Assembly: GCA_009602725.1 (NCBI GenBank)
Contig: WELB01000387.1
Location: 13,350 to 46,371, forward strand
DNA length: 33,022 nucleotides
Direction: 5' to 3'
Source of the DNA: Spirogloea muscicola
Lineage: Eukaryota; Streptophyta; Zygnematophyceae; Spirogloeales; Spirogloeaceae
Shown here in pieces: positions 173 through 33,022 of the stretch (positions are counted from its first letter, which is position 1; every line of letters starts with the position of its first letter). The notes beneath the pieces were generated by a model. That model worked only from the letters and a program-made list of their open reading frames with translations. It ran no database searches and had not been told where the DNA came from. The position numbers and the translations under genes are program-made.

Positions 173-734
173 GATGGCGCGGTGTGTGAAATGAAAGGGT
201 GGCCAATCCAAGCCAATACATTGTTCAGGCAAAAGCTAGGGGCTACATGAAAAGTACCTATGCTTAACATGCTAAAACGAAGCCCTATGCCTATGAAATG
301 CAAGGAAAGCTCGTCAAGCCGAACCAACTGAGGCTTGAGAATCAGAGTCCATTGTCAGGTCAGAGACTAGTTTCTCTGACCTGCGGCTGCTTAACAGGGG
401 ATATTGAGCACCCAGTGGCCACTTGAGTCGCTGAGTGCTTTTTTGCTTTGCTAGCCCTGTCGAGCTTTGTTCATTCATTCCTGGGCTGGCCAGTCACAGC
501 CACCCCCCTCTACTGGAAGAGACTCTCTCAAGGTCTGAAAGGACCAGAAGAATTTGTCATGTAGCTGTTTTCGTGATGACTGCTTCGTGTATTGATTGGT
601 AAATAACAATGAGCCGAGATCAGCACAACGTGAAGCATGCAGCCTGTTTGTCATGTCTTCGTCGGGGGTTGAGCGATTCCAGAAGGGCTGGTAGCCCTCG
701 CCTATGGCTATAATCAGGGGACCTGCTGCTAGCT
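173..734 (+). mobile_element. Decayed retrotransposon 3'-end remnants
   Basis: No gene is supported here. The stretch 375-445 resembles the ORF-end and 3'UTR region of the window's non-LTR family: 'ctgacctgcggctgctta' and 'cacttgagtcgctgagtgc' recur near 1088-1140. A stem-loop GGGCTGGCCAGTCACAGCC sits at 483-501 and is followed by 'ctactggaagag', as in most other copies. The remainder is unassigned. Confidence 0.6.
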
Positions 735-1235
735 GTCGATGGGCGTGCACGGGGCCATTGACAGTCGCTGGCTGGACCTCCTGCCCCCTTTTTTCTATGG
801 GCGAGCAATTTCTTCCTGCAGCGGCTTGCACGGCGGGCCATCAATTGTCGGCAGGGACAGCAAGGTGAGATGCCCAGCTTCAAAGCAGCCAAGTCGCTTG
901 CCTAGATATTCCGCATGCGGCTGTCCTTCTCCTTCCAACATTCCCTGGCTCACGCAGTGCACTTGCGGGCAGGCCGCGCTTTAGCTGCTTCTGAGTCCCG
1001 CCAGGGTGCTTCTTTTCCAGCTGCAAGTACTTTAAGTCTGCTGACTCGGGGTTACCAAGCTACTAGTCTGTCCAACCAGAGACTGATTCCCCTGACCTGC
1101 GGATTATGAGCATCGACTATTCACTTGAGTCGCTGAGTGCTTTAGAGCTTTCCTGGCCCCTCAGTGTGCTCCACTCATATGTTGATTCTCTGGGCTGGCC
1201 GATCACAGCCATCGCCCCCTACTGGAAGAGTCTTT
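735..1235 (+). mobile_element. 5'-truncated non-LTR retrotransposon, C-terminus plus 3'UTR
   Basis: Translation gives, across at least one frameshift, VHGAIDSRWLDLL, then SLAHAVHLRAGRALAA, then LLTRGY, in the same order as the better copy at 16.2-16.9 kb (VHGAFGTNWLDLL, LAFVIHLRAGRALAA, LLTRGY). At about 785-815 a piece resembling the end of the stem-loop module ('tctatgggcgagca') interrupts the ORF, which is the likely cause of the frame break. The 3' stem-loop follows at 1192-1210 with 'actggaagag' after it. It is a dead copy; the 5' part with reverse transcriptase is absent. Confidence 0.75.
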
Positions 1236-1660
1236 CTTTCTTTTGACCTTGTACATTCCTTTCGGGTTCTTTCACAGGGCTCCTCACTCGTAGCTACTGA
1301 GTGGTCCATCATCCACCCGTTCTGACATAGCATTTCCAGGCCCCTCCGTCATTGTGGCCATTCTCATTTGGCCCCTTCGAACCTTTGTCAATTCTTCCGG
1401 GCTGGCTTTTTACAGCCCTTGCCCCCGTTGGGAGACCCACTTCTCTTTCTTCTTTCGGGTTGGCTTCTCCCGTTGGGAGAGCCACTTTCTCACAGGCATT
1501 GCCTTAAATTGGAAAAGCCACTTCTTCCTGGGCAACAGCTCTTCCAATGCACGGCAATGGATGCAAGAGGCCAGCCCACAGAGAGAAGGCGCGCGGTGCG
1601 TATGAAATCAAAAGGGAGGCCAATTCAAGCCTTACAAATGACCTGTTAACTGGGTAATGA
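1236..1660 (+). mobile_element. Further retrotransposon 3'-end copies
   Basis: A degenerate ORF-end motif (ctcactcgtagctactga, TGA at 1298-1300) is followed 99 nt later by a stem-loop at 1399-1417 (GGGCTGG ... ACAGCC) and a reduplicated piece near 1457-1475. Spacing and order match the other copies. No autonomous coding capacity remains. Confidence 0.6.
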
Positions 1661-1936
1661 GCTAGCTAAGGGGGACACTAATATCCCCGAGTGGACCCAC
1701 AGGAATATACAGGGAAGCACGGCCGACTCCTTGCTTGTCTGCTTGCCTGCGGGCCAAGAAGCGCAGACAGATCACACTGTCGCCACTCGGCCCTTCGCTG
1801 GCGTGCCGCTCCTTGCTGTTGTCCTCGCCGGAGTCGAGCAGCGGACTGGAGACGGCCGACTTGCGTGACGATGTTGGAGTGATCCTAAGGCGGCGCCGGC
1901 AGAACGGCGGCGGCGGCACCAAGGACCGGCGGCGGG

Positions 1937-3637
1937 ATGCTACTCAGCAGGCCCCAGCCGCACCTGCACTCGAGGCTACTGCGCCTCCGCGGCTGCAGTG
2001 GTGCTGTGCCGCTGCTGCATGCCAAGGCGCGGTGCCCACGAAGGACCTCCAGCAGCTGCAGCTTTGGCAGCGGCACCTATAGAGGCGCAGACGATGGCGA
2101 AGGCGGCGGTGGCCGCGGTGGCGACGTCCATGCGGGCAAAGTGGGCGCAGCTCCACAGGGGCGGCTGCAGCTCCTGACGCGGTCCGAGGCCGAGACTGGC
2201 GCCCTGGCGGCAGCGCTAGCACGCCGTGTTACAGTCGGCGACGTCCTCTGCCTGCGCGGCGCTGTGGGCACCGGCAAAACCGCATTCTGGTGAGTCCCGT
2301 TGCCTAAAGCCTTCTCGCCAGGGTTAGCAGTGCACATACATGCAGTCTGCGGGTCTGACAATGTCAAGCTGGTGGCCGCGTGGGGCGCGTTGGTTCCGCT
2401 GAGGACAGCCGGCACCTCGTGCAAGCTGTCGCCGGCGACGGCGATGCCATCATCCCGTCCCCCACGTTTTTGCTGCAGAACGTGTACGACACGCACGCTG
2501 GCCCGTGAGTGTGACTTACTTTTTTTTTCATAAGCCCCAGTGTTGATCACAATCGTCCAACCTCAGAATGTTGGTGTTGATGACAATGAACAAGTCATAG
2601 ACCACAGCCCGCCTGAAGCCTTACCTTCAACAGTGCCAGTGTTTGCCAAAGGCCCCACCGTCAGCCTCACCCGATGTCACAGCAGGAAGTGCGGCAGCCC
2701 AGAAGGTCTGCTAGGCAGCTTCATCCAGCGCTCTGAGCCCAACAAGCGGGCCTTCCTTGAAGTCTTGTCAGAAATTCTCCGTGCAGCTGCGGACTTGGGC
2801 ACCTCCGCTGAAACAGCACCTGGAGAGTGGCCGTGGGTCAACTTCACAGCCCTCCAGAGCCAATGGCTCTCCCTGACAGTGGCCCCAGTGCTCGCCATGG
2901 CCCCGGCGTGTGCAGCCCGGTGCACCACTTTGACCTTTACCGCCTGCAGCCTGCCGCCAGCTTCGACCGCCTTGGGCTCCCTGCGTCCTTCATGGAAGGT
3001 AAAAGCTACTAGCCTCAACATTCACAGGCGTCCTGATCCTACCCTGACCAACACACTGACCAGCAATATTAAACACATCCATTGCCACGTGGTTTACCAG
3101 CTCTTTACATTGCGCAAGTCACCTCCGCAGCTGCTAAGTTCTTGCATTGTGAAAATTGGCTGGTCCGACGACCTCTATGGAGAGCCCAGTCAGCTACTCT
3201 GGCATCTCAGCAAGGGCAGCTGTACTGGTGGCTTCTCTGCATGTGCAGCTGTGAGCCTGATCGAATGGCCGGAGCGGCTCGGCAGCCTGCTGCCATGTGA
3301 CCGCCTCGATATAGAGATTGAGGCACTTGACGCCGCACAGCTAGTGGTGGCGGGGCTCAACTCCGCGAGGGTTGGCGGTAGTAGGGGCGAAAGCGAGGAG
3401 GTGGCCAACGAGGACGGTGGCGGCGCTGCCCCCGACTGGCGGCCACGGGTCATCACGCTGGTTGCCCATGGTGCACGGTGGCAGGAAGTGCTGGCAGCGC
3501 TGCGGGTCGAGATCAAGACCCCACAGTCGTCGCCGCCAACACCTCAAAGGCAAGGCGATGCTGTAGCTACGGGCCTCGAAGACGACAGAGACCACCAAGA
3601 GAAGCAACAACACAAGCCAATGGGTTCAGATGGGTAA
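1937..3637 (+). CDS. tsaE: TsaE-like ATPase of tRNA t6A biosynthesis, 4 exons
   Basis: Bacterial-type TsaE works with TsaB and TsaD to make N6-threonylcarbamoyladenosine at tRNA position 37; eukaryotic copies are expected in an organelle. Proposed exons 1937-2289, 2409-2504, 2916-2998 and 3249-3637 join in phase, all GT-AG, giving about 306 residues. Visible in order: Walker A GAVGTGKT (about 108-115), IPSPTF (about 133-138), HHFDLYRL (about 153-160) and LIEWPERL (about 181-188), all hallmark TsaE motifs. The first about 70 residues are rich in Arg, Ser, Leu and Gly, compatible with a transit peptide. At about 210-245 there is a Ser/Glu/Gly-rich insertion before the usual C-terminal strand (RVITLVAHG), and a 35-residue hydrophilic tail follows; most bacterial TsaE are only about 150-170 residues. 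The ATG at 1937 is the first in frame. A GTAAAG after the last Gly codon could be another donor, so the extreme C-terminus is less sure. Confidence 0.88.
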
Positions 3638-3686
3638 AGTGGAGGCCAAACTCGTGCGAGGGCATAGCCCTTCTCGATGCAGCGCA

Positions 3687-6333: not shown

Positions 6334-7740
6334 AGAATTTCAGAACCCTTTTTTGCTGCCATCTGGCCCTTTCAGACCTTGTGACCTTGTGCTGACTCGT
6401 GGGTACTAGAGTCCCCTCTTTCAGTTGTATTTAATTTCTTGGTTGGTAAATTCCCGCTTTAATACCTTATCCCCTCTTTAATTCGTACTTCTTACACAGA
6501 GAAGGCGCGCGGTGCGCTTAGAATAGAAGAAGTGGCTCTCCCATTGGGGGCAAGGGCTGTGAGAAGCCAGCCCGAAAAGTGAAAGGGAGGCCAATGTGAG
6601 CCCACAAGCCCACAGCATACTGGCTTGCTTTGGCCTCTCTCAGCCCGCGCCTTCTCTGCTGTTACCATCTGGCCATTGCGCCATCCGGCCCTTCCAGACC
6701 TTGTCCATTCCTTTGGGCTGGCCTCTCACAGCCACCAGTCAACTTGGAAGCGCTGTTCTCATGCCAAAGAGAGAAAGACGCTTCCAGGAAGTGTACGCAG
6801 GCCTTCCTCGGTCCGTCCTTCTGGGCTTGGCCTCTATTCACACACTCTCGCCCCCCCAGCCCCCACACTATCACTATCAAAGCGAGGCTCTGTTGAGCTC
6901 AGATCGGCAGCCGCCGCTCGGCCAGGTGCGGCTTTCTCGACCGGCTCAACCAGTGTCCCAGGCATCCGTATCAAACACCTCCTTGACTTGCCAACGTATT
7001 GCAGCAAGGTGTGCTTTCTTCTTTGCTTCTTGCTGCACATTGAGCTCCGCTTTCACGTTGCGAGCTCATCTGCCCTCATGTGGATTCAAGGTCAAGGCCT
7101 CTTGCAAGTGGGTCCAGGTACTTTGACTGACTGCATGCAGCTCTGGCTGTTGCCAGGGCAACAGGCTAAATGAAGTTCAGCTGCTGGGGGAGGGCCCCAG
7201 TACCATCTTTGCACCCCCAGTACCATCCCTCCCATGACATGCACGTCCTGGCCATGTGATTTTCTACTGGGAGCATGGGTGCCATGGCAGCTCACGGCCA
7301 GCGCATGTCATAGATGGGGTAGAAGGCCTGGTGAGGACGTCAAGGCAAAGCTCTTAAGCAATCAAGGAGGACAAGAAGGATGCTTGATCAGAGAATCCCT
7401 TGCTGAAAGTCTTTCTGCGTAGAGATTTGGCTAAATTGGGGCCGTGTGTTGTGACAACGAAGAGGAAGCCAGCAGACGTCCAATAATGCCAAGTAATGGG
7501 GAAGATTGTGCAAGTATTTAGTATGTGAACTACAATATGCGAAGAGCATCCGATGGCGTACCGGCAGGTCGAGGGTCGCAAAGGTGGAGAATGAGGATGG
7601 CAAGACGAGGACGCCACGCAGTTGATCCAGAGCTGCTTGCTTTCTGGCGGCTTAGGAACCACGGTTGAGGGCGCGCAGCACTGACTGGCAAGGTGAGGCG
7701 TGGTGCTGGAAGCGCCACTGGCTTTCCCCCCTTGCACTTT
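6334..7740. other. Intergenic stretch with retrotransposon 3'-end fragments
   Basis: Contains an ORF-end motif (ctgactcgtgggtacta) near 6392, a stem-loop on the minus strand at 6554-6573 and one on the plus strand at 6715-6733 preceded by 'ccttgtccattc'. From about 6830 to 7740 I see no convincing gene or repeat. The long open frames at 6596-7173 run through the stem-loop module and show no protein-like conservation. Confidence 0.5.
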
Positions 7741-7763
7741 CAGGCCCCTTGTCCATTCTTTTA

Positions 7764-7782
7764 GGGCTGGCCTCTCACAGCC
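7764..7782 (+). repeat. Retrotransposon 3' stem-loop
   Basis: GGGCTGGCCTCTCACAGCC preceded by 'ccccttgtccattctttta'. It faces the minus-strand stem-loop at 7824-7842, so two 3' ends of the same family meet head-on here within 60 bp. Confidence 0.75.
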
Positions 7783-7799
7783 CTGGCCCCATATGAAAG

Positions 7800-9756
7800 A
7801 AAGTGCTCGCCCATGGAGAAGAGGGGCTGGCAAAGCCAGCCCAAAAGAATGGACAATGTTCAAAGCCAAAGAAAGAGGTGCCGAAAAAGGACTACACTAC
7901 AAAACACGAGACGATGCAGAGGGAAGCTCAGTACCCGCGAGTGAGCAACATCAAGTCAGAGTAGCTCGCTGCAGGGAAAGAGGCACTCCGCCGAGACCCA
8001 GAGGCAGCGGATATAGCACGGCCTGCTCGCGTGTGGACGACGTAGCAAGGGAGCGTTTTGAACGAGACCGCCAGGCGCATATGAAGACCTGAGCGAGCGA
8101 ACCGGCGGCGTTGAAGCCGGGCAGCGCCCCTGGCAGACCCGGCCGCCGGTCAATGGCCTGACGGGCAAGCCGCTGGACGAGACCCAGCCAGCGGCTGCCA
8201 AAAGGCTCCGTGGACATCGATTGCCAGAGCCGCGGATTCATCACCAACCGCGTGATCCGCGTATTTGCGCTCCTTGCCCCGGGCCGCCAGGCCGACCGCG
8301 TGCCCAGCAGTCGACGACAATCTGGTGGATTGGCGGAGTCGACGCAGTCAATTGTGACCACTTCGGCGATGATGCGGGGACCGCCGCCGGGCGGGATGGC
8401 GACCAGGTCGGCGCGACGGGTATGGAGCTGGCCGTCCGCACCCTGCTGGATGGGCATTTTTGAGGTATTTGCACGGCCGCCTTGTAGCCGGCCTCCATGA
8501 ACACCCCCTGCATGCCATCTCGCAGGAGGTCGTGGGAACCGGTCCTCTCGCCCCCGTGTCGCAACGGAGCATGTGCGCAGCTAGCTCCGCAGGGTCGGCG
8601 TGACGGGCACCGCACTCGCACTGAGTGACGCCCACGAGGCAGGGAGGGAGGAGGCCCAAGAGCCGGTGGACCGCCGTCTGGAAGACCTCATCTGGCATGG
8701 TGAGCGCCGCGTGTAGTGGGAAGAAAGTGCTCGCCCATAGAGAAGAGTGGTTGGCAAAGCCAGCCCAAAAAGAATGGACAATGTCCAAAGCCAAAAGAAT
8801 AGAGGTGTCGATAAACACGCCGCCGACCCAGGGGAGGAGGCTGAGAGGAGCCGTGCGCGCCCGCGAAGGTCAGGCGGAGGGAACAGCTCCACAACCTGGT
8901 CAAAAGCTGCATTCTCGACCAGCGCCGTGTAGCGTGCCTGGGCACGCAGGTCAGGGGTGTGGGCGAGGTGGATGAAAGGGACGGCCTGCTCCGACATGAT
9001 GGGGTGGACCGTCAGGAGCCCGTCGCGGGCAGAGCAGAGGGCAGCCTGGAAGGGCAACTGGCCAATCTCCACTCCAGCTGCCGCCCGCTCCAAGGGCGCG
9101 CTGGCCGTGGACGATGTACCGCTGGCATATGGGGCTTGAACCTGAGCCCAGCCCAGGTAGGCAGCCTCGCAAGCGCGGGCAACTGAGCGGCATCCCAAGC
9201 CGCCATGGCTGACCGGCAGGCTAGCCTGTAGCAGTGCAGCTGGTGAGGTGAGGAACGCGGGGTTCTGAACGAGGGGGGCCGCGGAAGCCAGGATGCCGGA
9301 GTCGAATGCCGCATACGCTGCCTTCACCGCCGATGAGGGAGGGAGGGTGCGGGCCAGGTAGTGTGGCCGCTGCGCAATGCACCGTCGCCAGCTGCATGTC
9401 CTGCAGCGTGTGAAGACGGTCCGCCGGCCGGAGGTGCTCCTGCAGCCGCGCCTGCAGCTGCTCCACTACAAAGGCAGGTGCGCCTAGGGGAACGCCGAGG
9501 AGGGTGAGGCCCCCGGCTGGTGTCTGGCAGCCTAAGGGCAGGCGCAGGTGGGCTGGCAGGCCCTGAGTGGACCAGGCGCTGCACTTGTCCGCCCGAATGT
9601 CCAGGCCGATCGCACTCAGCTGCACTTCGAGGGTGGCAAAGGCTGCCGCGACGTCCTCTGGCTTCCCCACCAGCGTGGTGTCGTCAGCGTATGTCGGCAT
9701 GAGGACTCCAGGGTGAACCGCGACCGTTGCCTGGAGCGCACGTTGGTGTGCTAGCG
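7800..9756 (-). mobile_element. Non-LTR retrotransposon copy: partial reverse transcriptase, finger, endonuclease-like C-terminus, 3'UTR
   Basis: This is the longest copy of the family in the window, 5'-truncated inside reverse transcriptase. Reading the minus strand: VLMPTYADDTTLVG at about 9700 is the RT catalytic box (YADD). A frameshift falls near 9385, after which come YLARTLPPSS and SLPVSHGGLGCRS, typical of the LINE region after the RT palm. A stem-loop module intrudes at about 8715-8810. Then follow a Cys-His finger CECGARHADPAELAAHMLRC (about 8575-8640) and an endonuclease-like segment with HDLLRDGMQGVFMEAGYK, HTRRADLVA and IIAEVVTIDCVD. The C-terminus ends SYSDLMLLTRGY with its stop at 7928-7930, and the 3'UTR stem-loop GGGCTGGC-TTT-GCCAGCCC lies at 7824-7842. 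Several frame breaks show it is dead. The finger plus PD-(D/E)xK-like order recalls R2/NeSL/Dualen-type elements; that family placement is inference. Confidence 0.85.
8241..8621 (-). pseudogene. Endonuclease-like C-terminal domain of the retrotransposon (broken)
   Basis: Detail of the copy above. Between the finger and the ORF end, the protein reads across frame breaks as HDLLRD...EAGYK...HTRRADLVAIPPGGGPRIIAEVV. The other copies read RRSDLVAIPPGGGP..IADVV (28.7 kb) and RRADLVASALGGG..NADMV (16.7 kb). The invariant Asp in (A/S)DLVA and the Glu/Asp alternation in A(E/D)VV are what a PD-(D/E)xK nuclease core would show. No clear catalytic Lys is evident, so activity of the ancestral protein is uncertain. 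Confidence 0.6.
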
Positions 9757-10605
9757 CTTAGTAAAACCCCGCCAGTGGAGCCCCTTGGCGCGCGCCCCTA
9801 ATGAGTGGAAGGATCTCCACCACCCCTGATCCGCCATTGCAGCTCGCATGGCTGACCGTACCCCAGCCTGAAGAAGGGTAGAAGGCTGGGGATATGAAAG
9901 AGCTACTTTCTCCTGATCTGCGATTCCCTGAATCCATCCTGTTCTGGGCTGGCCAGTGATACGGCCATCTGATTATTCTGGTAGACCTTGTTTCTCATGC
10001 AGGCCATGCGGCTACGCGTGGTTGTTTTCGGTTCAGGGATTCAGGATAGAAGGTTCAGAGATCCGGCCCTCCGGAGAGCGAAAGGCCCCCTACTTGCCCC
10101 TTCAGCCGGCTTTCGTTGTCACCTAAGCCCCCCCTACGGACTGACTCGTGGTTACTGAGCGGATCAATCTAGCAGCAGGTGATGTACATCCGTCAATGTG
10201 CATGCCTCTGTACTTGGCCACTCAGGCCCTCCATCAATCAAAACACGCCATTTCCCTATAGCACAAGGCTTCGCGCTGTGTAGCCCTACTCTTTGCACAA
10301 GCTTTGCCTGAACAGTGTATTTGCTCCATTTTGGCCTAACTACCTGCAGCTTTCACACTCATTTGGCCCCTTCGAACCTTTGTCAGTACTTTTCGGGCTG
10401 GCTTTTCACAGCCCTTGCCCCCATTGGAAGAGCACTTCTTTTACACTGGTACCTTAGCCCCCCTTTGCATGTGACTTCGTTCATTATAGCCCCGCTTTTG
10501 CCTGATCTGTGTATGGGCTTAACTGGCCTGCCTCTCACTTCATGCGCACCTCGCGCCCTTCTCCTTCCAAGTACCATGTACGTTTGGACTGGCCTCTGAC
10601 AGCCA
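9757..10605 (+). other. Intergenic stretch with scattered retrotransposon 3' ends
   Basis: A degenerate stem-loop lies at 9946-9966, an ORF-end motif (ctgactcgtggttactga) at 10141-10158, and stem-loops at 10395-10413 (followed by 'cccattggaagagcacttctt') and 10586-10604. No gene is seen. Confidence 0.55.
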
Positions 10606-12548: not shown

Positions 12549-14776
12549 TCAGGCACCACGACTGCTGCTGCGGCCCCGCTTGGTGGGAGGAGTCTCGTTG
12601 CTGCCGTCGTCACGATCGGCCCCGTTGCCACCATTGCTGGCACCGGTGCGGCGCGCGCAGCGGAGCTGGCTGACGACAGCAGCCGCGATCTTCTGCTCCA
12701 GCTCCTCGTGCCAAGTGCCACTGCCGCTGCCCTCCACCGCAGAGCTGAATATGTGGACGCTGACGCAGTTGGCAGACGACATGCACGAAGCGTGGCGCAC
12801 ATCCAGCGGCGTGCTGTCCAGCGCCGCAAGCACATCCGATAGCAGGCCTCGTCGCCGGGCGCACTGCACACGCAGAAGAACCTGCTCGCTGCACGGCAAC
12901 CACGGCAGCAGCAGGACGGGAATGAGGACCAAGGATTGGATGAAGCTGGATCTCAAACAGTCACGACCACTAATTCAGCGGTGAGAGATGTTTCTCATAC
13001 CACTAGTCAAGAAGTGCTTACAATTTTCAGAGACGATCATGACAACTTGAGACTAGCCAACAGCTGCATTCAGCTCCAATGGATCCGCCTGCTTGTGCCG
13101 CGGACGTGGCGGCAGCAGCAATCACCTGTCAATGAGCCGGACATCAACATGGACGCCCGCTGGGCCCACTGCCTCTTCGTGGGATGAGTTTGGAGTCGGC
13201 GGTGGTGGTGCCGCAGGTGGCACGAGCTTCCCAGTCTTCCCAGCACTGCCAGCGACGCCCGCTGCCTCCGCGTCCTCGACGGCCTCCTTCACTGCCAGCG
13301 GCTGCGGCGTAGAATGGCAGCAGAGGCACCACCGGCAGCTCAGCAAATTGAGGGAAGTAAGAGGTAGAAGGTGGACGAAGGAAGAGGGAGGTGGGAAGTG
13401 GAGGGAGGGAGGAGGAACCTTGATGTCCCTGGCGGCTTCCTCAGCAGTGGCAAGGCGGCGCTCCATGGCCGCGACCTTGCCCTGCAGCGAGTGGATGTAG
13501 TCGATTGCATCTTCCAGCGTAGACGACTTGTTCATCTTCGTGATGTTGGGCACGATGCCGCGCAGCGCCAGGAACTGCGCGTTGAGCCGCTCCCGCCGCC
13601 GCCGCTCTGTCATGAGGTGCGAGAGGGCCGCTGCGGGGGGCGCCGCCGCCGGCGAAGCTGCCGCCGCTGCCCCCAGCGCGCTGCCACTGCCGCCGGCCTT
13701 GGAGAGCTGCTTGCCAGCGGATCGCTTCTTCCCGCTCCGCATCTCGTCTGCACATCGAGCAATCCGCCGTTGCCACAGCAGCTGCCGTAAGCAGCTGACC
13801 GCACTGACAGCAGCCATGGGCGCGGGCCGGCATCGCTAGTAGGGCAGCGGCAGCTCTGCTGCTCACCATCGTCGTCGAGCAGATCATCAGCCTCCGAGTC
13901 GCTGGACAGGAAGAGGCCCCCCTCGGACCGCGACGCCGCAGCCCCCGCAGCTGCACTTGGCGCGGCGCCAGCTGCCGCCGCACTCCAGTCGCGGCTCGGT
14001 GCGCGCTCGAGCGGAAGCTGGGCCGGCGCTGCCGCCGATGGCGACGGGAGCAGCCCACCGAGGCCTGCCGGCGAGGGCCGCACCAGCGTTGAGGCAGCAG
14101 GCGTCAAGAGCCGCAGCCGACAACGACAGCATGGCAGATCTACGGGACTCGTCGGCTTGCCACAAAGTGCTAGCAGCAGGTTGTGGGCGCCCAGCTCAGG
14201 AGGCGGCGAGGAAGGGCGGGAGGAGGAGGCAGAAGATGGGGAGCAGGATGGACTACAGAACGATGTGAAAGAATGCGGCTTCTGATAATCAAAGAGCGGC
14301 TGTGAAAGCCAGCCAGGTGCATCGAGAGGGTGTCCATGACTGTGACGGAGGAGCCACGGGCTAGGCAGACAGGGCGCTCTCAGCACCCCCGTGTCAGCAG
14401 AAGGGAGTCCGATGAGCTGAGGGGATGGACACCACTAAAGAGTGTGGGAGGGAGGGGCGGAGGGCGGCGAGACTGGCAGTTTGTCAGCTCACCTGAGCTC
14501 TGGGTTGTGGGCGCCACGCTGTCGGAGGCCCAGCTCGGGCGCGGCGCCGCAGGCTTGGCCGCCGCCGCCGCCGCCGCCGCCGCCGCGGCGCGTNCCGGCC
14601 AGCCATGGCTGCCGCCGGGGGCGCGCACCGCGGCGCGGGGGCGCCACCGTCAGGGCTGGTGCCGGCCAGCCATGGCTGCCGCCGGGGGCGCGCAGCTCGG
14701 CGGCGAGGTGGGCGGCCAGGGCCGCCGTGGCGGAGCTCGAGGTGGGCGTTGGCGGGAGGGCAGGGCTCCGCTGCAT
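12549..14776 (-). CDS. bHLH transcription factor with C-terminal ACT-like domain, 5 exons
   Basis: Plant-type bHLH proteins bind E-box/G-box DNA as dimers in the nucleus; ACT-like domains add a second dimerisation surface. Proposed exons, 5' to 3': 14776-14493, 14252-13867, 13747-13419, 13301-13126, 12888-12549; all phases agree, giving about 504 residues counting the N at 14594 as one base. The bHLH domain (about 266-315) begins SHLMTERRRRERLN and has the E-box-reading set His267, Glu271 and Arg275; helix 2 is STLEDAIDYIHSLQ. An acidic stretch (SSDSEADDLLDDDD) precedes it. The last exon encodes EQVLLRVQCARRRGLLSDVL and NCVSVHIFS, fitting an ACT-like fold. Exon 1 is Gly/Ala/Pro-rich low complexity and contains the N; that exon and the ATG at 14776 are the least certain part. 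It resembles plant bHLH subgroups with ICE1/DYT1-like domains; no orthologue is assigned. Confidence 0.82.
14298..14314 (-). repeat. Retrotransposon 3' stem-loop inside bHLH intron 1
   Basis: GGCTGGCTTTCACAGCC on the minus strand, inside the proposed intron 14253-14492. A related one is at 14817-14831 just upstream of the proposed start codon. Confidence 0.6.
14562..14700. repeat. GCC array, single N, and a tandem duplication
   Basis: A run of GCC units (about 14559-14588) ends at the N (14594). Directly after it a segment beginning 'ccggccagccatggctgccg' at 14595 is repeated at about 14660, each copy extending about 33 bp. All of this lies within the proposed first exon of the bHLH gene. 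The N and duplication suggest an uncertain assembly join. Confidence 0.8.
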
Positions 14777-15610: not shown

Positions 15611-16118
15611 AATGAGAGGGCCTTTCACAGCCACCGCCCGTCTTGGAAAGGATTCTGCTCCTCTGAAGCGTCGTGCCCGGTATGTTACTACTACTGAGCC
15701 ACTGGCAGCCCGTCATCGGGCCCCCGTGGGCGCTCGCCGTGCTTGGGGCCCACGCACGCCACCTCCGTGCACCCGTTGGCGTGATTCTGGAGTAGCTTCC
15801 CCTCCCTCAGTGCCTGAAAGATTGGCGGTCCACTGCCGCTGCAGACGTGTTTGCGTGTGCGCCCCTCCGCTGGCCGCCACGTTGCACACACGGGCTCCCG
15901 CCTCCCTCTGCAAGCAGCCTCTTCGTTCCCCCAGAGTACGTGCTCTCCAAAGGGGGCAAGGGCTTTGAACAGCCAGCCCGAAAAGAATTGACAAGGTCCG
16001 TAGGGGCCAAAGGCGCTGTCTCAGAGCTTGGCCGGTAGGATGAATCACTTGGTAACTACGAGTAAGGAGCCGCAAAATCAGAAAGACTAGCAGCCGGAAA
16101 AAAAGCGCGGCCAAATTA
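15611..16118 (-). mobile_element. Retrotransposon 3' ends, mainly minus strand
   Basis: A minus-strand copy has a decayed ORF end near 16050 (rc of 'ggtaactacgagtaagga'), followed by the stem-loop region 15960-15979 and 'tgcccccttt'. A plus-strand partial stem-loop (cctttcacagccaccgcccg) is at 15621-15640. The stretch between them, about 15690-15900, is unassigned. Confidence 0.55.
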
Positions 16119-16935
16119 ACCGGTGGCTGGGAGAGGCCAGCCCAAAGGAATGGACAAGGTCAGAAGAAGCCGGATGGTGCAGAAAGCAAGGTGCTAAGGT
16201 ACTGAAGTGTTAAGACCGCAGCAAGGAGACTCTCAGTAACCTCTAGTCAGGAGATGTAAATCAGAATAGCTAGCAGGTGAATAGACGTCGCCCTGACGGA
16301 AGCCGGAGTCCGCAGCCAAAGCGCGGCCTGCGCGCAAGTGAATCACAAAGGCAAGGGACCGCTGCAAGGAGATGGCCAAGTGCATCCGGAAGACTTGATC
16401 GAGGGATCCGGCGATGTTGAAGCCAGGCTGCTCGTTCTGCTGCCCGTGGCGGCGGGCCACTGCACGCTGCGCAAGGGGGTGAAGAAGGTCAAGCCAGTTT
16501 GTCCCAAAAGCTCCGTGTACGTCGACAGCAAGTGGGACGAACTCGTCTCCCACTGGATTGATCCGAGTACTTCCGTTCCTTTACGCCCGCCGCTTGGCGG
16601 ACTGCGTAGCCCGCCTCCTCCGACGAGCGGTTGCCGCTCCTGAAATCAAAGCAGTCGGTCGTGACCATGTCGGCATTGACCCGACGCCCCCCGCCGAGCG
16701 CGCTGGCGACGAGATCGGCGCGCCGTGTGTGGAGGCGTCCATCCGTCCCAGCGGTCAGAGGCCTAATGCTGGAATTCTCCAGCGCCACGGTGTAACCGGC
16801 TTCGACAAATGTTCCGAGGATTGCATTCCGGAGCAGGTCGTGTGTGCCGGTCCACTCCCCTCCCCGTGCACACCTGGGCTGCCAACGAGGCCGCGACTGG
16901 GCTGCGCTCGCCGCACTCACACCCAGAGCACTCAT
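16119..16935 (-). mobile_element. 5'-truncated retrotransposon: endonuclease-like domain, C-terminus, 3'UTR
   Basis: Second-best copy of the family. Minus-strand translation reads HDLLRNAILGTFVEAGYT, LHTRRADLVASALGGG and NADMVTTDCFDF, then after a frame break near 16540 VDVHGAFGTNWLDLLHPL, GFNIAGSLDQVFRMHL, VIHLRAGRALAA and SYSDLHLLTRGY with its stop at 16233-16235. The 3' stem-loop GGGCTGG..CAGCC variant lies at 16125-16143 about 90 nt later. A remnant of the Cys-His finger (CECGERSPVAAS) is visible up to about 16930, where the copy ends. The downstream half (16553-16233) is an intact open frame. Confidence 0.85.
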
Positions 16936-17384
16936 TTTCTATCTCTCTTAAATCATATGATGGGCTGGCCATTCACATCCATAGCTCTCTTTCTACTTTC
17001 TCTCTCTTTTCTCTTTCTCTTTCTTTTTTCAGCATGCTGTCGGCAAGGCGCGAGCATCACGGGAGAAGAGCAGATACGCGGACCACCCTGCCGGTGATGA
17101 ATCTGTTCTGCGGGACATGAACGTCCACGAATGCGTTGGTGGCCACAAATTTTACCTGTTGTTCATTCCTTTGGGCTGGCCTCTCACAGCCATTGCCTTA
17201 CATTGGTAGAGCTGTTTACTGTACAGTTCTCGCCTTTCCGTGCCTTCCGGCCCTCCAGACCTAGTTTTCATTTGGCTGGCCTCTCACAGCCTTTGCCTTA
17301 CATGAAGAGTGCTACTTCTAGGAAAGCTGCTTCTTCTAGAATGGCTTGCCTGGCGTGAAGTCACTCGACCACGGCCAGAAAGGC
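16936..17384 (+). mobile_element. Cluster of retrotransposon 3' stem-loops and CT-rich DNA
   Basis: Stem-loops on the plus strand at 16962-16980, 17173-17191 and 17274-17291; the last two read GGCTGGCCTCTCACAGCC and are each followed by 'ttgccttacat'. A CT-rich tract occupies about 16984-17030. No gene is supported. Confidence 0.65.
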
Positions 17385-17700: not shown

Positions 17701-18400
17701 GCTTCCTCTCCTTTTCCTGTCGCCTTCGTCCCTTGTCCATGTTTGGTTGGGGCTCGCCTTTCACAGCCATCGCACAATTCTGAAAGTAGAAATTATTTTC
17801 TTCAAGGCGTCGCCCAACCCTCTAATGAAGCTCAGACTGTCCCTTCATACCTCATCCTTTCTCTTTTGCCCGGCTTTCGGTAGCTTACTAGGCCTCACTG
17901 AGTGGCCATCCTTATGGTCGCTTCCTTTCTGAGTAGCATACGCTTTCCAACTCCTGCTCGGACCTGCCTTTCACAGCCAGCGAACCCCTCTGGGAAGAAC
18001 TTCCTTTGGACCTTATTCACTCTTTGTGGGCTGGCTTTTCACAGCCCTTGCCCGTTTCGCAAGAGCTGCATCTTTGACATTTGCGTCATGGTGAGTGCAA
18101 AAGTCATGCCCATGAAAGCTGACGGCCTACGTACATGGTGGGTTGACGTGGTGGTCACCTTGCCAGGTGGGGGCCCATGCAGTTTCGCGGGTGTGGTCAC
18201 CACTAATTCCTTTGGCCCCTGCAAACTCTCTGGCCCCTTCGAAGTTTGTTCGTTGTTCTTCTTGGGCTGGCCACTCACAGCCATCGCCCTCTACTGAAAG
18301 TGTCCTTCTCTATACCACTCCAACCTGGTGTTCTCAGCTTTAAAGTCCAGGACACGCAGCCAGTACCGCCAGAGCAAGGAGGCAAAGTAAGCAGATCTAC
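17701..18400 (+). mobile_element. Tandem/nested retrotransposon 3' ends
   Basis: Stem-loops or decayed stem-loops at 17750-17767, 17960-17978, 18028-18046 and 18264-18282, each in plus orientation and mostly followed by a CGCCC or TGCCC stretch. The repeated same-orientation spacing suggests that new short copies inserted next to or within older ones. Confidence 0.6.
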
Positions 18401-18960
18401 GGTGGAGGATGCCCCTCGCCATCGTCGTCCACGAGTCTTTAGGGCTCGGTGACTCGACCTACTGCACCCCCTTGCGCGGCATTCGTTGTCCCGCCGGTAG
18501 CAAGGGAAGCAGGGTGATTTTAAGGCCGCAGGCTCTCTGGCCCTGGTGTATCGCATGCGGCTCTCCTCCTGGAGCTATCTTAGGCTCGCACCTTGGATCC
18601 GCGTGCGGGCCATGCCCTAGGGGCCCTCCGATTATCGGCAGGACTCCTACCCCAATGCTAATCTCGACTTGCGGCTGCTCACCAGTGGTACTGAGCGGCC
18701 ATCCTTGGCGATTCCACCTTCTCCTGCGTGCTACTTACTTTCCTGTCTCTACCGGACCTTCTCATCCTTTTGTGGGCTGGCCCTTTGGGTCCTCGCCGAT
18801 TTGCAGAGGCTACTTCTTTCTTTTGGGCTCCACTTTCACAGCCATCGCCCCCCTTGGAACAGCTTCCTCCCTATCAACTTGTTCATTCTTCTGTGGGCTG
18901 GTCATTCACAGGCCTCACCCCCTCCTGAAAAAGCTTACTGCTTCTTACCATTGGGCTTCA
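18401..18960 (+). mobile_element. Decayed retrotransposon C-terminus and 3' ends
   Basis: From 18409, PLAIVVHESLG corresponds to PLAVDVHGAFG of the 16.5 kb copy, and the frame then breaks several times. 'tcgacttgcggctgctcac' and 'agtggtactga' (TGA at 18692-18694) mark the ORF end. Stem-loop variants follow at about 18774, 18825-18843 and 18894-18913. The tail near 18940-19165 includes a CT-rich stretch (about 19085-19150). Confidence 0.65.
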
Positions 18961-19194
18961 CTTTGTGTAGCCTCATGCACTATCATTTGTGTATTGGCTT
19001 GATCTGGCCTCCCTTCAAATGGAAGCGCACCGCGCGCCTTCTCTGTCATGACATTCCGACGACGCCCGCCTCCTCACCCCCCCACCCATCCCCTCACTCT
19101 TTCCCTTCCTCCCTCCCTCCCACTCTCTATCTCTATCTCTCTCTCACACTCAGGGTGAAGAAGGCCTAAAGGGCCGAACGGCGCTTAAACCACA

Positions 19195-19624: not shown

Positions 19625-19884
<260 letters not shown>

Positions 19885-24171: not shown

Positions 24172-25540
24172 CGCCGTTGGCGGAGGCTTGCCACCAGATT
24201 GCCGCAGGCCGGGCCTCACTGCCGCCTCCGCCTTTGCCACAGCTGCCATGCTGTGCAGCGGCCTCGGTCTGGGCTGTCGCAGCGTTGGGCCTGCCATTGA
24301 TGAGCCCGTCCTCCAAGGGCGGTCGCCATTGACGGCATCCCTAGCCGACAGGCAACACCCACAAGCTGCTTTCCCTGCAGCTGCCTGCACCGCCTGCACA
24401 GTCGTTGCTAGCGCGGCCTCCATGTTGCAGTCCGCCGCCGGCGGCAGCAGCCTGGAGGGCTCCCGCGTGAGCTCCCCGTGAGCCAAGGCCTGCCGCTCAC
24501 TGCCGATAGCCGCAGCAGTGGCCACCGGTGGGTGCTGTCCTGCGGCTCTGCAACAGCAACCCCGGCTTCCGCGGGAGCGCGCGACAGCACCGCTGCAACA
24601 CGACGGCCAGTAATGGTGGTTCTCTCGGCGTCGAGCAGTGGCTCTGGTCACTTGCTAGTGCTGTCGAAGTTCAGGAATTGGCAGAGGGGCTGAGGTCATG
24701 TGGGAGGCAGGGCTTACGGACTTCTTATGTGGACCTTGTCGCATTATAGATATGGAGGTGGCAGATTTCAGGGGTTCAGGGGTTCACCCAGAAGGAAGCT
24801 CTTCCCATGTAAGGTAGTGGCTGTGAAAGGCCAGCCCAAACGCCAGCCAAGAACCATGAACACGAACACCCAAGTAGCCTCTACTTCTACCTTCCAAAAT
24901 TTCAACAGACAGAGCTAGCATAGGTTGGGGGTCTGTAGGCTGCCCAGTCTCCAGCTCGATCTCCGCCTACCAGCAGACCTGCTGCTTCTGACTTTGTTAG
25001 CAGTAGCAGCCCACGGTTGTGATATGCTTACATCTGTACTCAGCATGACCACTCAGATGACCCCGTTCACAAGCCACAAGAGAGCATGTTCTCCTTGAAA
25101 GCAATGGGAATCCTCTGTGGGGAATCCTCTGTCAGCACCAGGAACCATCATGAGCCGGTTTTGCATCGACGCCGCTCTATCACCTCCCACTTGAAATCTG
25201 ACAAGGGCAAAAGCTTCACGCCCTCTACTCTTGAGAAGCCAAGGGACTTCAACTTTTTAGATGATGGAGTTGGTTGGTCAGGGCATGTTGGAGGTCATAC
25301 GGGGTGCACTGAAGCAGGCCAAACAGCTGCCAACGTTGGAGATGCCGCGCTCGCAACCCCTCTTCACACCAGGCCGATGCAAGACGTTCCTCAGATAGCT
25401 ACGTGTGCAGCCACCTTTGCATCCTTGTTAATAACGACACGAACAAGCCACCGCTGGGATATCGCATTACACACTTCTCCACCAACTCGTGAAGCTGTGA
25501 CAACAGCCTCCGCCTCATGCACCAGCTCCTAGTGGTCCAC
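24172..25540. other. Upstream region of the LarB-like gene with one retrotransposon 3' stem-loop
   Basis: 24172-24651 stays open on the minus strand in the LarB frame and may be extra N-terminal coding sequence or 5'UTR. A minus-strand stem-loop (rc GGGCTGGCCTTTCACAGCC) is at 24819-24837. At 25107-25131 'gggaatcctctgt' is directly repeated. An open frame 25086-25532 (148 codons) has no recognisable motif. Confidence 0.4.
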
Positions 25541-27644: not shown

Positions 27645-27784
27645 GAAGTACCGGATGTGCTTGGCCGCCTCGTTGCCGAGGTCTATGGCCTCCCTGCGTG
27701 CCGGCAGAGCCCTCGCTGCTGCCTATGGCTCTGGCCAGGGGACCCACTTCCAGGAGCCCAGCTTCTCTGACCTGAGGCTGCTTN
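27645..27784 (+). mobile_element. Retrotransposon C-terminal fragment ending at an N
   Basis: Translation YRMCLAASLPRSMASLRAGR followed by ALAAAYGSGQG and SFSDLRLL matches the C-terminus of the family (VFRMHLAISLQRSLAF, LRAGRALAA, SYSDLHLL). The match stops at the N at 27784, next to a GCC array (about 27800-27832). It sits 45 bp upstream of, and opposite to, the proposed start codon of the 26.3-27.6 kb gene. Confidence 0.8.
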
Positions 27785-28150: not shown

Positions 28151-28398
28151 TAGTATCCTGCTTTTTTACGTGGGTCACGGCGGAGTGCCTCTTTCCTGGC
28201 AGGGAGCTACTCAGACCTGATGTTGCTCACTCGTGGGTACTGAGCTTTCCTCTGCATCGTTTCTATGTTCTGCAGTGTTTTGTAGTGTAGTCCTTTTTCC
28301 GGCTCCTTTTTCTTTGGGTTTGGACATTGTCCATTCTTTTTTGGGCTGGCTTTGCCAGCCCCTCGTCTCTATGGGCGCGCACTTTCTTCTTTTACGTG
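28151..28398 (+). mobile_element. Retrotransposon ORF end and complete 3'UTR
   Basis: SYSDLMLLTRGY-like coding (in the stretch 'ctactcagacctgatgttgc' onward) ends at TGA 28241-28243. About 100 nt later comes the stem-loop GGGCTGGC-TTT-GCCAGCCC (28343-28361), then 'ctctatgggcgcgcactttc' and 'ttcttttacg'. It is the best plus-strand example of the 3' end and closely matches the minus-strand copy at 7.8-7.93 kb. Confidence 0.8.
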
Positions 28399-28555
28399 GG
28401 TACTGGGCTTCCCTCTGCATCGTCTACGTGTTTCGTAGTGTTTTGTGGCGTAGTCCTTTTTCCGGCTCCTCTTTCTTTGGCTTTGGACGTTGTCCACTTC
28501 TTTGGACTGGCTTTGCCAGCCCTTCTTCTCTATGGGCGAGCACTTCTTCTTTTAC
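28399..28555 (+). repeat. Second, tandem copy of the 3'UTR module
   Basis: Starting 'cgtgggtactgggcttcc' (about 28398), the module of about 155 bp repeats the preceding one with about 85-90% identity by eye, including the stem-loop at 28504-28522 and 'ctctatgggcgagcacttct'. It is fused directly to the endonuclease-like ORF of the next copy. Confidence 0.8.
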
Positions 28556-29145
28556 GCCATCCCGGCTCCGCTGCGTGCACGGGGGCGAGCGGACCGGTAC
28601 ACATGACCTCCTGCGCGACGCCATGCAGGGTGTGTTCCTGGAGGCCGGCTACAAGGTGGCAGTGGAAAATTCGACAGTTATGCCCATCCAGCGGGGCGCC
28701 GACGGACTGCTTCACACCCGACGCTCTGACCTAGTTGCCATCCCGCCCGGTGGAGGTCCACATATCATCGCAGATGTGGTGACTGCAGATTGCGTCGACA
28801 CTGCCAACCCCGTGAAATCGGCGACGCTCGCCGGGCACGCGGTCGCTGTGGCGGCTCGGAGTTAGGAGCGCAAGTATGCTGACCACCCTCTAGGCGATGA
28901 CTTCGCGGCCCTGGCCATTGACGTTCACGGGGCCTTCGGCAGCGGCTGCTTGGATCTCCTCCAGCGGCTTGTCCGGCAGGCCATCGAGCCGCGGACGTTA
29001 CACTCCCTGCAAATGCACTGCATGAGGCTGGGGATGTTGGAAGGAGATGAAGAGCCGCATGCGGAACACCTGGGCAAGCGACCGGGCAGCATTGAAGCAG
29101 GGCAGCTCATCTCGCTGTCCGAACGACGATCTATAATCCACTCCG
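28556..29145 (+). mobile_element. Retrotransposon endonuclease-like fragment with internal inversion
   Basis: Plus-strand coding from about 28573: GERTGTHDLLRDAMQGVFLE, AGYKVAVENS, LHTRRSDLVAIPPGGG, IIADVVTADCVDTANP, a stop at 28863, then FAALAIDVHGAFGSGCLDLL and QRLVRQAIEPR. From about 28995 to 29140 the sequence instead matches the next part of the element (FNAARSLAQVFRMRL, SFQH) on the opposite strand. The downstream segment is therefore inverted in place. No 3'UTR follows. Confidence 0.8.
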
Positions 29146-30165: not shown

Positions 30166-33022
30166 TCAATTCGGGTTCACGGCTGTCACAACAGCAGGGC
30201 CATGCCGAATGGACGGAATCTGGCTAGACGAAGCTGGTGTGAGCTTGGCAGGCAGGAGCTGAGCCTCATGGAGTTGCGGGAGCAAGGGAGTGGAGCACTC
30301 CAGCAACGGCGGCGTCGGGGAGGGAGAGGGGCTGGACGAGGGAGGTGGCGATGAGGCGGACAGTGAGGATGGGGACAGGGCCACGGCAGGTCCCTCTGCT
30401 GGCAGCACTGGCTGTGAAGGTGGTGCGCCGCGGGACAACGATCCCACATTGGCGAGCTTCCGCCGCACCTTCTTGCTCGTCCCACTCCGCTTCTTCTGCG
30501 GCATGTCGGAGCCCTCCCGCCGCAGCGCCGCACCCTTGGCGGCTCTGCAAGGCCGCGTCAAGGGGAGTGAGTTGTAGTCTCCATGGAGAGAGAGCGCCTG
30601 CATTTGTGAGGCCAAGCTTTTCTCCAATTCTATAAGGACCATCTCAACCATGTGGCTAAGATAATGCTCAAAGCCACACATCATACCTCCCTCTCAGCAC
30701 CTTGAAGGCATCAGTGGTTGCATACGGCAAGCTGGTCTTAGGATCCCGGTACCTGCAGCAAGCGCGCTCAGCTGCCTCTTGGTGGCAGCCCGTGCAAGCC
30801 GGCAGAAGCTGTCGCAGATCTTGGAGCGCCTAATGGCTTTGAGCTCCTCACAACACTCCAACTTTGAGGTAAAAGAGGAACTGGTCTCAGGGCCTTCACA
30901 AAGAGGCCTCACCTTGCTGGAAGGCCCGTGACAAAGCACAGCGCCGGAGCAGGAGCTGCAGGGCACAGCCACCAGCTTGTGATTTATGCGCTCTTGAGAG
31001 GCTATGCCCACAAGTGCAAGTCCAAGTGACTGGGTCGAGAAAAGATTGTCCAACATTGTGGGCTGGCAGTTTGCCGAGACCACGAATTTCAGGGTTTGGG
31101 TTGAGTGCATCAGCCCTGCACTTTCTTGTCCCACCTTTGGGCACCTTTGACCGGAGCGCCTCCGGGAGCTGAGCAGTCCGTGTAAACTCAATTGTGTTGC
31201 GGCCTGGCAAGCTCGTTGTGCAGGCATGTTACGGTGCTCCTGAGGCTAAGGAGTGAGGGAGTGCAAAGAGTGGCCCTGTTGGCAAGCGGATCTCCAAAGC
31301 GTGCAGCGCAGAAGGATACCTTCTCGGGAGACAAAGCGGATGAGGGGCCCCATGTAGGCGGCCTTCTGCACCACTGCTTTGCGCTTCACCTCCTCTTCCC
31401 GCGCCAGCATTGCCTCCAGGGACTGCAGATTGAGGATCTCTGTCATGACAAGCCGCCGGCCCAAAAGGTGGCATGTTGGCCTGGTGTCAGGGTAGATTTC
31501 TTTGCAGATGTTGCTGTCGGGCAAGCGGTCGAGGACATACATGTGAAATCGACGTAAAGCCGGAGCGGGGTTGGAGGAAGGAGATAGAGGTAGAGGGAAA
31601 GGGGGAGCAGAGAGGGGGGGGGGATGGCGGGGTTGCTTGGGCACCAGTCTGCGCGGCCTCGATGAGCATCTCCTCTTGTGTGCGTCTGCGCTCCTCCTCT
31701 TTCTTCTTCTTCACCACGACCACCTGCTGACCACTCCAGGCACGGCAACGCATGCGGAGCTTTGGCGTCAGGAGCCTCACAATAGTCATCAGAGCGCAAG
31801 GCCAGGCTTGCTTGCAGACTTCGGACGCAAGACCTCTAGCCTCAAAGCTTAGGAGTCCATATCTCGACCTGATTCCTGGACCCTAGGTCCCTAACCATGG
31901 ACTGCAGATGTCAAGTTGGAAGCCCCATTGCCCCCTCACCTTGGCCGCAGCCTGCTGCTGCTTGGCGCGCTCGGCCTCGCGCTCGATGTCCTTGACGACG
32001 ACAACTGTGCGCGTCGACTTGCGGCGGCCAGCCTCCCCCGGGCTGCTGAGCTCAGCAGCTGGGCTACTGCCGCCGAGAGGCTGGCCCTCCTTGGCCTCGA
32101 GCTGCCGCCGCTTGGCCCGGGTGGGCTGCCGGGTGGCTGGCGGCGGGGCGGCGCCACCTCCGCCGCCGCCGGCCGCTCGGCTGAGGTCCTGCAACGTCGA
32201 GGCCGAGCGTGGAGGAGGCTTCCTCTGTCGAGGCCGCGCCGGCCGTTGCCGCTTCCGCCTGAATCGCCACAAGAGGAGAGCGCCGCAGCCTCCTCCTCAG
32301 CAGGAAATATCAAATTCTCTCTTCTGGGCTGGTCAATCACAGCCATCGCCCTTTACTGGAAGAGTCTTTCATCATGTTGGCACCGCTGCCGGTATGCGTG
32401 GCTTTATGGAATTAAGGCCAGGGTTCGGAAGTAGGCCACTTTAATCACAGGTTTTGGCGCTTCGGAGCGAGAGATACTTAGGGTTTAGGGTTAGGTTTAG
32501 GGGGGCTTTAGCGTTTGGGGTATGCGTTCGGTTTTAAGGAAGTAGGGTTTAGGGTTTCCCAGCGGCCGACAGCGGCAACCGTAGAGGTGAGTCTGCAGCG
32601 CCCCAGCTGACCTGCCTCCGACGCCGTCATCGTCGCTGCCGCCGACGCCCTCGCCCCCGGACGACTCCTGTCACCCCGCGGTACAGCACCCGCCAGGACA
32701 GCTGTCAGCCGCGACTGACGACGGGCGGCCGCCGCTGCGCCAGGCAACGGGCTGCTCGATCAGTCACAGCGGCGGCGGTGGCGACGGCGGCGGTGGCGAT
32801 GGCTGTGGCGGAGGCGGCGGCAATGGCTGCGGCAGCGGCGGCCGCGGCGGCGGCGGCTCACGTCGCTGTCGAAGAAGTCGCTGTCAAACTCGTCCTCCGG
32901 CTCGGCGTCGGGCTCCGCCTCGAAGTCCTCGTCGCCGTCCCGCTGCGCAGCTCCGCCAGCCGGGCGAGCGGCCGGGTGAGGCCACCTGGCGGCGGAGCCA
33001 CGGCGGCGGCGGCGGCGGCGGC
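30166..33022 (-). CDS. SWC2: SWC2/VPS72 (YL1) subunit of the SWR1 chromatin-remodelling complex, 5' end beyond window
   Basis: SWC2/YL1 binds the H2A.Z-H2B dimer and helps SWR1 place H2A.Z in nucleosomes. Proposed exons, 5' to 3': beyond 33022-32862, 32667-32612, 32258-31940, 31723-31645, 31439-31320, 31203-31135, 30955-30913, 30752-30687, 30544-30166; every GT-AG join keeps phase (377 codons with stop after the first partial exon). The first exon is acidic (DGDEDFEAEPDAEPEDEFD, FFDSD), as in the YL1 N-terminus that contacts histones. RRKSTRTVVVVKDIEREAER, TQEEMLIEAAQTEILNLQSL, AREEEVKRKAVVQKAAYMGP and IRFVSREGRNTIEF follow in family order. The YL1_C domain is split over exons: EALRSKVPKAPAPALCFVTG, LPARYRDPKTSLPYATTDAF, KVLRGR. 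The last exon adds a Lys/Arg patch (PQKKRSGTSKKVRRKL) and a Ser/Pro-rich tail that is probably disordered. The 56-bp second exon rests on phase only. Confidence 0.9.
32326..32372 (+). repeat. Retrotransposon 3' stem-loop in SWC2 intron
   Basis: GGGCTGGTCAATCACAGCC followed by 'atcgccctttactggaag'. It lies inside the proposed intron 32259-32611, antisense to SWC2. Confidence 0.75.
32477..32558 (+). repeat. Interstitial telomere-like tract in SWC2 intron
   Basis: CTTAGGGTTTAGGGTTAGG with further TTTAGGG units, a degenerate middle, then GTAGGGTTTAGGGTTT at 32542-32557. It lies inside the proposed intron 32259-32611, about 100 bp from a retrotransposon stem-loop. Confidence 0.92.
32763..32861. 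repeat. GGC-rich low-complexity tract in SWC2 intron
   Basis: GGCGGCGG, GGTGGCGACGG and GGCTGCGGCAG units fill the end of the intron next to exon 1. A similar GGC run closes the window at 33001-33022. Confidence 0.75.

Follow-up and report, generated by a model that had tools for sequence, protein, structure and literature searches.

A short hairpin module marks the 3′ ends of LINE retrotransposons in the Spirogloea muscicola genome

When a stretch of 33,022 nucleotides from the zygnematophyte Spirogloea muscicola (GenBank assembly GCA_009602725.1, contig WELB01000387.1, positions 13,350 to 46,371 of the forward strand; the whole stretch is called the window here) was read from its letters alone, a short stem-loop module was seen to recur in both orientations and was predicted to mark a retrotransposon 3′ end. 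Our analysis identifies this module as the 3′ end of a long interspersed nuclear element (LINE). It stands after the open reading frame (ORF) carrying the reverse transcriptase (RT), its copies have a common terminus, their 5′ ends are scattered (family B), and conservation is centred on the hairpin (families with a GGCTG/CAGCC stem). We consider it highly probable that the module serves as the 3′-terminal recognition end in a superfamily of LINEs, each with a single long ORF. The families named here are 3′ untranslated region (UTR) families, obtained by clustering 148 ORF ends that had at least 8 of 10 letters of the ORF-end motif; families C and D are represented by few ORF ends.

The module at the end of the LINE reading frame

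The string GGGCTGGC occurs 27 times in the window; 100 dinucleotide shuffles gave a mean of 5.6 and a maximum of 12. A first profile hidden Markov model (HMM) was built from 24 modules, 19 of which are window modules and match by construction. It found 26 copies in the window at E≤0.01 (20 on the plus and 6 on the minus strand), the weakest of which was equalled in none of 20 first-order simulated windows. The second-round HMM gave 27 matches at E≤0.05 (19 plus, 8 minus). The original prediction of about 30 copies is fair if weaker ones are counted, and 18 of the 19 sites it listed are among the HMM matches. The nineteenth, at 14298 on the minus strand, is an exact hairpin, GGCTGGCTTTCACAGCC, with a family-E flank, and is missed by the HMM. 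The predicted hairpin forms with 8-nt and 3-nt loops are both real and come from different families. Nine window places carry at least 7 of 10 letters of the LTRGY-stop motif, the one at 1058 having no stop codon. A hairpin lies 65–134 nt downstream in seven of the nine and is absent at 10158 and 6409; the predicted link to the ORF end held, and the accompanying figure of at least eight cases at 55–130 nt was slightly high.

The genome searched comprises 153,112,186 bases in 471 contigs. The exact pattern GGCTGGC-N-N{1,7}-CAGCC was found 33,678 times (16,903 + 16,775). The hairpin pattern read backwards was found 72 times (37 + 35), a scrambled-stem pattern 121 times (64 + 57), and the reversed form of the latter 898 times (450 + 448).

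A genome search with the RT fragment of the window returned 150 scored relatives, some with frames longer than 1000 aa. The top Pfam RVT_1 matches in the genome, which in our judgement look like the long terminal repeat type by match length, were left aside in the analysis of LINEs. For 20 RT relatives a region of 1.2 kb spanning the expected end was retrieved, and 16 of these were readable; L081, L087 and L088 read as N, and L071 showed no element end on the expected strand. The hairpin follows the long ORF in all 16 readable element ends, with one stem substitution in three of them (L076, L079, L080). Fourteen of these ORFs end in L[TS]RGY, and the hairpin stands 64–100 nt beyond. L076 ends in LTCGY and L084 has another end, and the hairpin is nearby in both. 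Several of the 16 ends are near-identical copies, so that the set represents about five groups and fewer than 16 independent cases.

A second set was chosen by the C-terminal protein alone (20 of the 153 matches listed, plus L115, giving 21). An intact hairpin was present 67–107 nt beyond the stop in 14 of the 21, and a hairpin with one substitution in three more (L103, L107, L110). One copy (L097) is cut within the hairpin. In three others (L098, L111, L115) the end is interrupted, in two cases by an antisense element directly behind the stop. Taken together, the fetched loci contain 127 distinct ORF ends that match the motif in 9 or more of its 10 letters. A hairpin or module lies within 200 nt of 107 of them, in 102 cases within 114 nt; the count stood at 110 of 130 until three ends counted twice, through the overlap of L069 with L091 and of L076 with L089, were taken out. 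Of 4000 segments of 200 nt drawn at random from these loci, 520 contained the hairpin. Locus L009 is part of the window, so the module totals and the nesting counts given below may count a few places twice. The central claim of the prediction, that the module is the 3′ end of an RT-bearing retrotransposon, is borne out by its position just downstream of the RT ORF end. As a separate observation, L098 and L115 carry an antisense family-H 3′ end at nearly the same place, directly after LTRGY-TGAG.

The copies also end alike. In families A, B, G and H, identity among copies is high up to a CTT-rich tail and then falls over about 10 bases to 30–50% (the anchor letters of this alignment are identical by construction). 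This is the common 3′ terminus that had been proposed as a check, with the copies running into the tail. The 5′ ends behave differently. Thirty family-B copies were chosen solely by an 83-nt 3′ match, the copy in the window included, and upstream of the hairpin they extend for anything between 36 nt and several hundred nt; two exceed 1000 nt, by one partner each. No discrete short element or preferred 5′ end was seen among these 30 copies, and the 5′ ends form a continuum.

The scatter of 5′ ends indicates that the short family-B copies are truncated LINEs and not short interspersed nuclear elements (SINEs). The original prediction had described extreme 5′ truncations that behave like SINEs; the truncation is upheld, and SINE-like behaviour found no support among these 30 copies. 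A true SINE would be a separately transcribed, non-autonomous element with a borrowed LINE 3′ end. The great number of hairpin ends (33,678), the existence of copies of just 40–200 nt and the precedent of Chlamydomonas SINEs with 3′ ends in common with LINEs (PMC3747384, excerpts) would all fit such an element. The 30 family-B copies, however, show no preferred length, and those that are long enough have LINE 3′ UTR and coding regions upstream, so we regard this explanation as highly improbable. A tRNA-like origin of family B, suggested by eye from the B-box-like string TTCGAACC, was dropped since longer copies have LINE 3′ UTR upstream.

LINE remnants in the window

The features of the window are given below, with the basis of each assignment in brackets.

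467..524 (+): family-D 3′ module, 76 nt past the ORF end SDLRLLNRGY-stop at 407 (HMM, ORF-end search)
813..1055 (+): LINE C-terminal coding fragment, LTRGYQ at 1058 with no stop there (HMM, ORF-end search)
1186-1233 (+): family-D 3′ module, 134 nt beyond LTRGYQ at 1058 (HMM)
1385..1438 (+): family-B 3′ module, 99 nt past the ORF end SFTGLLTRSY-stop at 1300 (HMM, ORF-end search)
6534..6578 (-): family-B 3′ module (HMM)
6701..6756 (+): family-G/C 3′ module (HMM)
7749..7801 (+): 3′ module, tail to tail with LINE 7797-9946 (HMM)
7797..9946 (-): 5′-truncated LINE copy, family A (tblastn of LINE proteins from fetched loci; sequence reading)
7803..7856 (-): 3′-end module of LINE 7797..9946 (HMM match, E 2.8e-14)
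8721..8815 (-): family-A copy of about 90 nt, extreme 5′ truncation (repeat match of 8720-8815 to 28458-28549; HMM)
10381..10436 (+): family-B 3′ module, copy reduced to about 83 nt (10359-10441) (HMM)
14289..14320 (-): family-E 3′ hairpin GGCTGGCTTTCACAGCC, 65 nt past the ORF end SDSLLLTRGC-stop at 14380 (missed by the HMM)
15943..15994 (-): family-B 3′ module (HMM)
16103..16921 (-): LINE C-terminal fragment, family G, to SDLHLLTRGY-stop at 16233, with module 16103-16157 (HMM, ORF-end search)
17159..17212 (+): family-C 3′ module, with a second at 17266-17311 (HMM)
18014..18067 (+): B-like 3′ module, with more at 18256-18303, 18814-18859 and 18879-18935 (HMM)
24796..24840 (-): family-C-like 3′ module (HMM)
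28171..28551 (+): two tandem truncated family-A 3′ ends (repeat matches, HMM; ORF end SDLMLLTRGY-stop at 28243)
28566..28994 (+): LINE C-terminal (endonuclease-like) coding fragment (tblastn, 86% identity to the L126 protein)
32315..32367 (+): family-D 3′ module (HMM)

The truncated copy LINE 7797..9946 consists of a partial RT (YADD), the C-terminal domain to SDLMLLTRGY-stop at 7928, the 3′ UTR, the hairpin and a CTT-rich tail. Its RVT_1 match is weak (E 0.0073) and below the Pfam cut-off. Its module is laid out as a TTGTCCATTC arm, the hairpin GGGCTGGC-TTT-GCCAGCCC and a ATGGGCGAGC arm. The copy at 8721..8815 sits within the C-terminal coding part of this LINE. In the tandem pair at 28171..28551 the modules occupy 28327-28383 and 28490-28544, and TTTTACG stands before, between and after them. 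The scattered short repeats of the window are thus explained as one thing, namely worn LINE 3′ ends.

Such clustering raises the possibility that the module is itself a target site, with LINEs homing to their own 3′ ends and clusters growing by repeated self-insertion. Within 66 nt, 118 of 221 module 3′ ends (53%) run into another LINE copy, some insertions lie within other modules (for example in L014 and L022), and TTTTACG surrounds the tandem copies. Control pieces of 60 nt taken 500 nt away, however, gave 77/172 and 94/167 (45–56%), and those taken 1000 nt away 33/124 and 53/134 (27–40%). Since the nearby controls are similar, nesting mostly reflects local LINE density, and we do not claim self-targeting; the idea was rejected for want of an excess over local controls, and homing of this kind appears very unlikely.

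Other sequences were noted in passing. An open frame at 13122-13817 on the minus strand encodes a basic helix-loop-helix domain (Pfam HLH, E 2.5e-13), looks plant-like by eye and is probably a host gene amid the repeats. Positions 1-174 are a long GA/GAGT microsatellite. A second GA tract at 19640-19767 is followed by N and a T tract (an assembly gap). In the genome, matches to the light-harvesting chlorophyll a/b-binding family (PF00504) are abundant (68, exon by exon) and often form apparent three-contig sets, which suggests a triplicated genome.

Families and the structure of the hairpin

Families A, B, C, D, E, G and H have the GGCTG/CAGCC hairpin, and families F and K have GGCC-type hairpins. 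When 3′ UTRs were aligned between families, using hand-chosen representatives here and in the F/K arm alignment below, 79 of 92 alignments overlapped the hairpin; few of these alignments involved F or K. In the GGCTG families the hairpin is therefore the part of the UTR that stays conserved while the rest diverges.

Family F (window 10190-10360, plus strand; loci L011, L017, L020, L023, L033, L035 and L086) has the hairpin GGCC-(N4-6)-GGCC, and many copies end near AAATACACG. In family K (loci L008, L034 and L112) the 3′ end after an LTRGY-like stop reads AAGGCCAGAATTGGCCT..., then ...CCGCGCGCCTTCTC. Window repeats at about 177-251 (-), 1582-1641 (-), 10480-10563 (-) and 18983-19151 (+) look K-related by eye. 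We considered the GGCC(A)/(T)GGCC hairpins of F and K as compensatory variants of the common stem; this was suggestive by eye and was set aside, as MAFFT places the 3′ arm of F and K on the 5′ arm of the others. Four loci (L032, L108, L025 and L002) are apparent chimeras, in which the 3′ end of one family abuts 3′ UTR or coding sequence from a different family; they could be due to template switching or nested insertion.

The strings TTGTCCATTC and ATGGGCGA, which stand before and after the hairpin, are complementary to one another. One plan is common to the folded majority sequences of families A, H and B, namely an outer helix, two unpaired stretches of 7–9 nt and the inner hairpin. In the outer helix of family B, CAAT/ATTG replaces CCAT/ATGG with a shift of one base. 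Substitutions per site and copy were counted in copies picked by their flanks only; such copies do not count as independent, and part of the loop variation marks subfamilies. The values for stem and loop were 0.016 and 0.055 in B (59 copies), 0.015 and 0.119 in H (37 copies), and 0.030 and 0.093 in G (36 copies). The lower rate in the stem in three of four families lends weaker support to a conserved structure. The spacer before the stem gave 0.037 in B, 0.086 in H, 0.005 in G and 0.03 in A.

Several results weigh against a structured recognition end at the 3′ terminus. Among 12 more distant RT copies, seven showed no ORF end in the fetched stretch; of the remaining five, four had a hairpin (L112 and L114, and in altered form L122 and L124), and L119 was interrupted. 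Twenty of the 127 ORF ends are without the GGCTG/CAGCC hairpin, families F and K with their different hairpin included. Target-site duplications, a proposed check, found no statistical support: for the 13 of the 30 family-B copies with a defined 5′ end, 212 of 2000 random pairings were as good. Two of the 13 carry repeats of 8–10 nt, and single cases that look like duplications are TACTGCTGCC at L030, TTCCCGCA at L038 and the three TTTTACG around the tandem pair 28171-28551. In family A the rates of stem and loop do not differ (0.029 and 0.026, 39 copies), and in family G the spacer is more constant than the stem. Families G and D are not predicted to form the outer helix. Swapping the arms of the outer helix between families was not significant, with 39 of 120 permutations as good. 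The covariation check was nil, as none of the five core pairs changed on both sides in the 24-sequence alignment. With an invariant core stem, conserved sequence and conserved structure are inseparable in this alignment. The argument of the prediction that both forms fold and that the structure therefore matters is not supported as it was stated, because core-stem covariation was nil and the arm swap gave 39/120.

A rival view is that the hairpin is conserved only as a DNA or RNA sequence motif (a protein-binding word, a terminator or a processing signal) and that its folding is incidental. An invariant core stem without covariation fits this view, as does the lack of the word in families F and K. 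However, the palindromic arms are kept together while the loop length ranges from 3 to 8 nt, loops vary more than stems in three of four families, and the ends of F and K have another hairpin at a similar place. We judge a pure sequence motif unlikely.

The encoded protein and relation to known elements

The frames of L089 (1410 aa), L090 (1325 aa) and L125 (1521 aa) contain, in this order, one or two zinc-finger-like motifs, an RT, a C-x-C...H...C knuckle and an RR-x-DLVA...DVVT motif. The zinc-finger-like motifs were seen by eye, and the Pfam matches to them in L090 are below the cut-offs. The RVT_1 matches have E values of 2.5e-13 (L089), 8e-16 (L090) and 1.2e-14 (L125), and range from 8e-16 to 6e-11 in five ORFs of 921–1521 aa, two of them (L091 and L126) partial. 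The letters of the knuckle and of the RR-x-DLVA...DVVT motif are invariant in the four ORFs compared; L072 and L073 were omitted from one protein alignment (reference with stops). When a profile of the RT and C-terminus was compared with the Protein Data Bank (PDB), R2 retrotransposon proteins alone were significant (6e-7, 8e-7 and 9e-4), and the next match was YuiC (1.9).

LINEs of the L2 and L1 clades carry apurinic-type (APE) endonucleases. No Pfam match to such a domain was found in the five ORFs, two of which are partial, and the putative C-terminal endonuclease had no profile match in PDB or Pfam. Its motifs resemble those of the restriction-like endonuclease of R2 elements, and from them we read the C-terminus as a putative R2-type endonuclease.

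The R2 group (R2, R4, NeSL/Utopia, HERO and CRE) is among the closest comparisons. The likeness lies in a single long ORF, zinc-finger-like motifs at the N-terminus (seen by eye), an RT whose significant PDB matches are R2 proteins alone, the C-terminal Cys-His knuckle with the R-x-D...D-V motif, and 5′-truncated copies. The elements described here differ in that no single target site was seen in the copies read, that the copy number is very high, and that the putative endonuclease is recognised by motif and by no profile.

The R2 RT binds the structured 3′ end of its RNA, and by analogy a mechanism can be proposed. The LINE RNA would end in a hairpin with a GGCTG...CAGCC core, which some families would close with an outer helix, for example TTGTCCATT/AATGGGCGA, and then in a short CTT-rich tail. 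The RT of the element itself may bind this structured end, as in R2 and in LINEs of the stringent type, and would prime through the CTT tail on a nicked target rich in CTT or TTT. It would then copy toward the 5′ end and often stop early, leaving short 3′ remnants; early stopping is proposed because the copies are truncated.

In LINEs of the stringent type a stem-loop is read at the 3′ end (PMC4176376 and PMC3747384, excerpts of both here and below). Such LINE 3′ stem-loops are described in animals and monocots, and one green-algal LINE/SINE pair has a common 3′ end (PMC3747384). The stem-loops of eel UnaL2, zebrafish ZfL2 and the maize/sorghum L1 lineage likewise stand just before a short repeated tail and are conserved between families while the remaining 3′ UTR diverges (PMC3747384, PMC4176376). 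Those elements belong to the L2 and L1 clades, whereas here the RT is R2-like, the core stem shows no compensatory change, and binding is putative. Chlamydomonas RandI/Dualen and SINEX are also green-algal LINE/SINE pairs with 3′ ends in common, one SINE having a (CTTT)n tail (PMC3747384, excerpts). Dualen encodes both endonucleases (PMC4640811, excerpts), whereas no APE domain was detected by Pfam in the five ORFs here; unlike SINEX, no SINE was found here among the 30 family-B copies. We found no paper on the present element in the open-access literature searched. Hairpins at LINE tails are already known; the present case adds a new example, unusually abundant, and no new principle.

A broader idea, which we put forward tentatively and regard as doubtful, is that a small 3′ RNA code is common to nine or more LINE families belonging to a single R2-like lineage. 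Recognition would either cross families, with RTs copying each other's ends and giving rise to chimeras, or have been re-coded in F and K by a joint change of RT and hairpin. If this is true, the co-evolution of RT and hairpin would be readable from one genome with more than 33,000 natural copies of the end.

How a LINE RT selects its RNA is known for few elements. In this genome, several related families have one minimal hairpin in common, and their tens of thousands of copied ends record, through naturally occurring mutations, which variants the enzyme accepts; the lineage is R2-like and its host a photosynthetic eukaryote.

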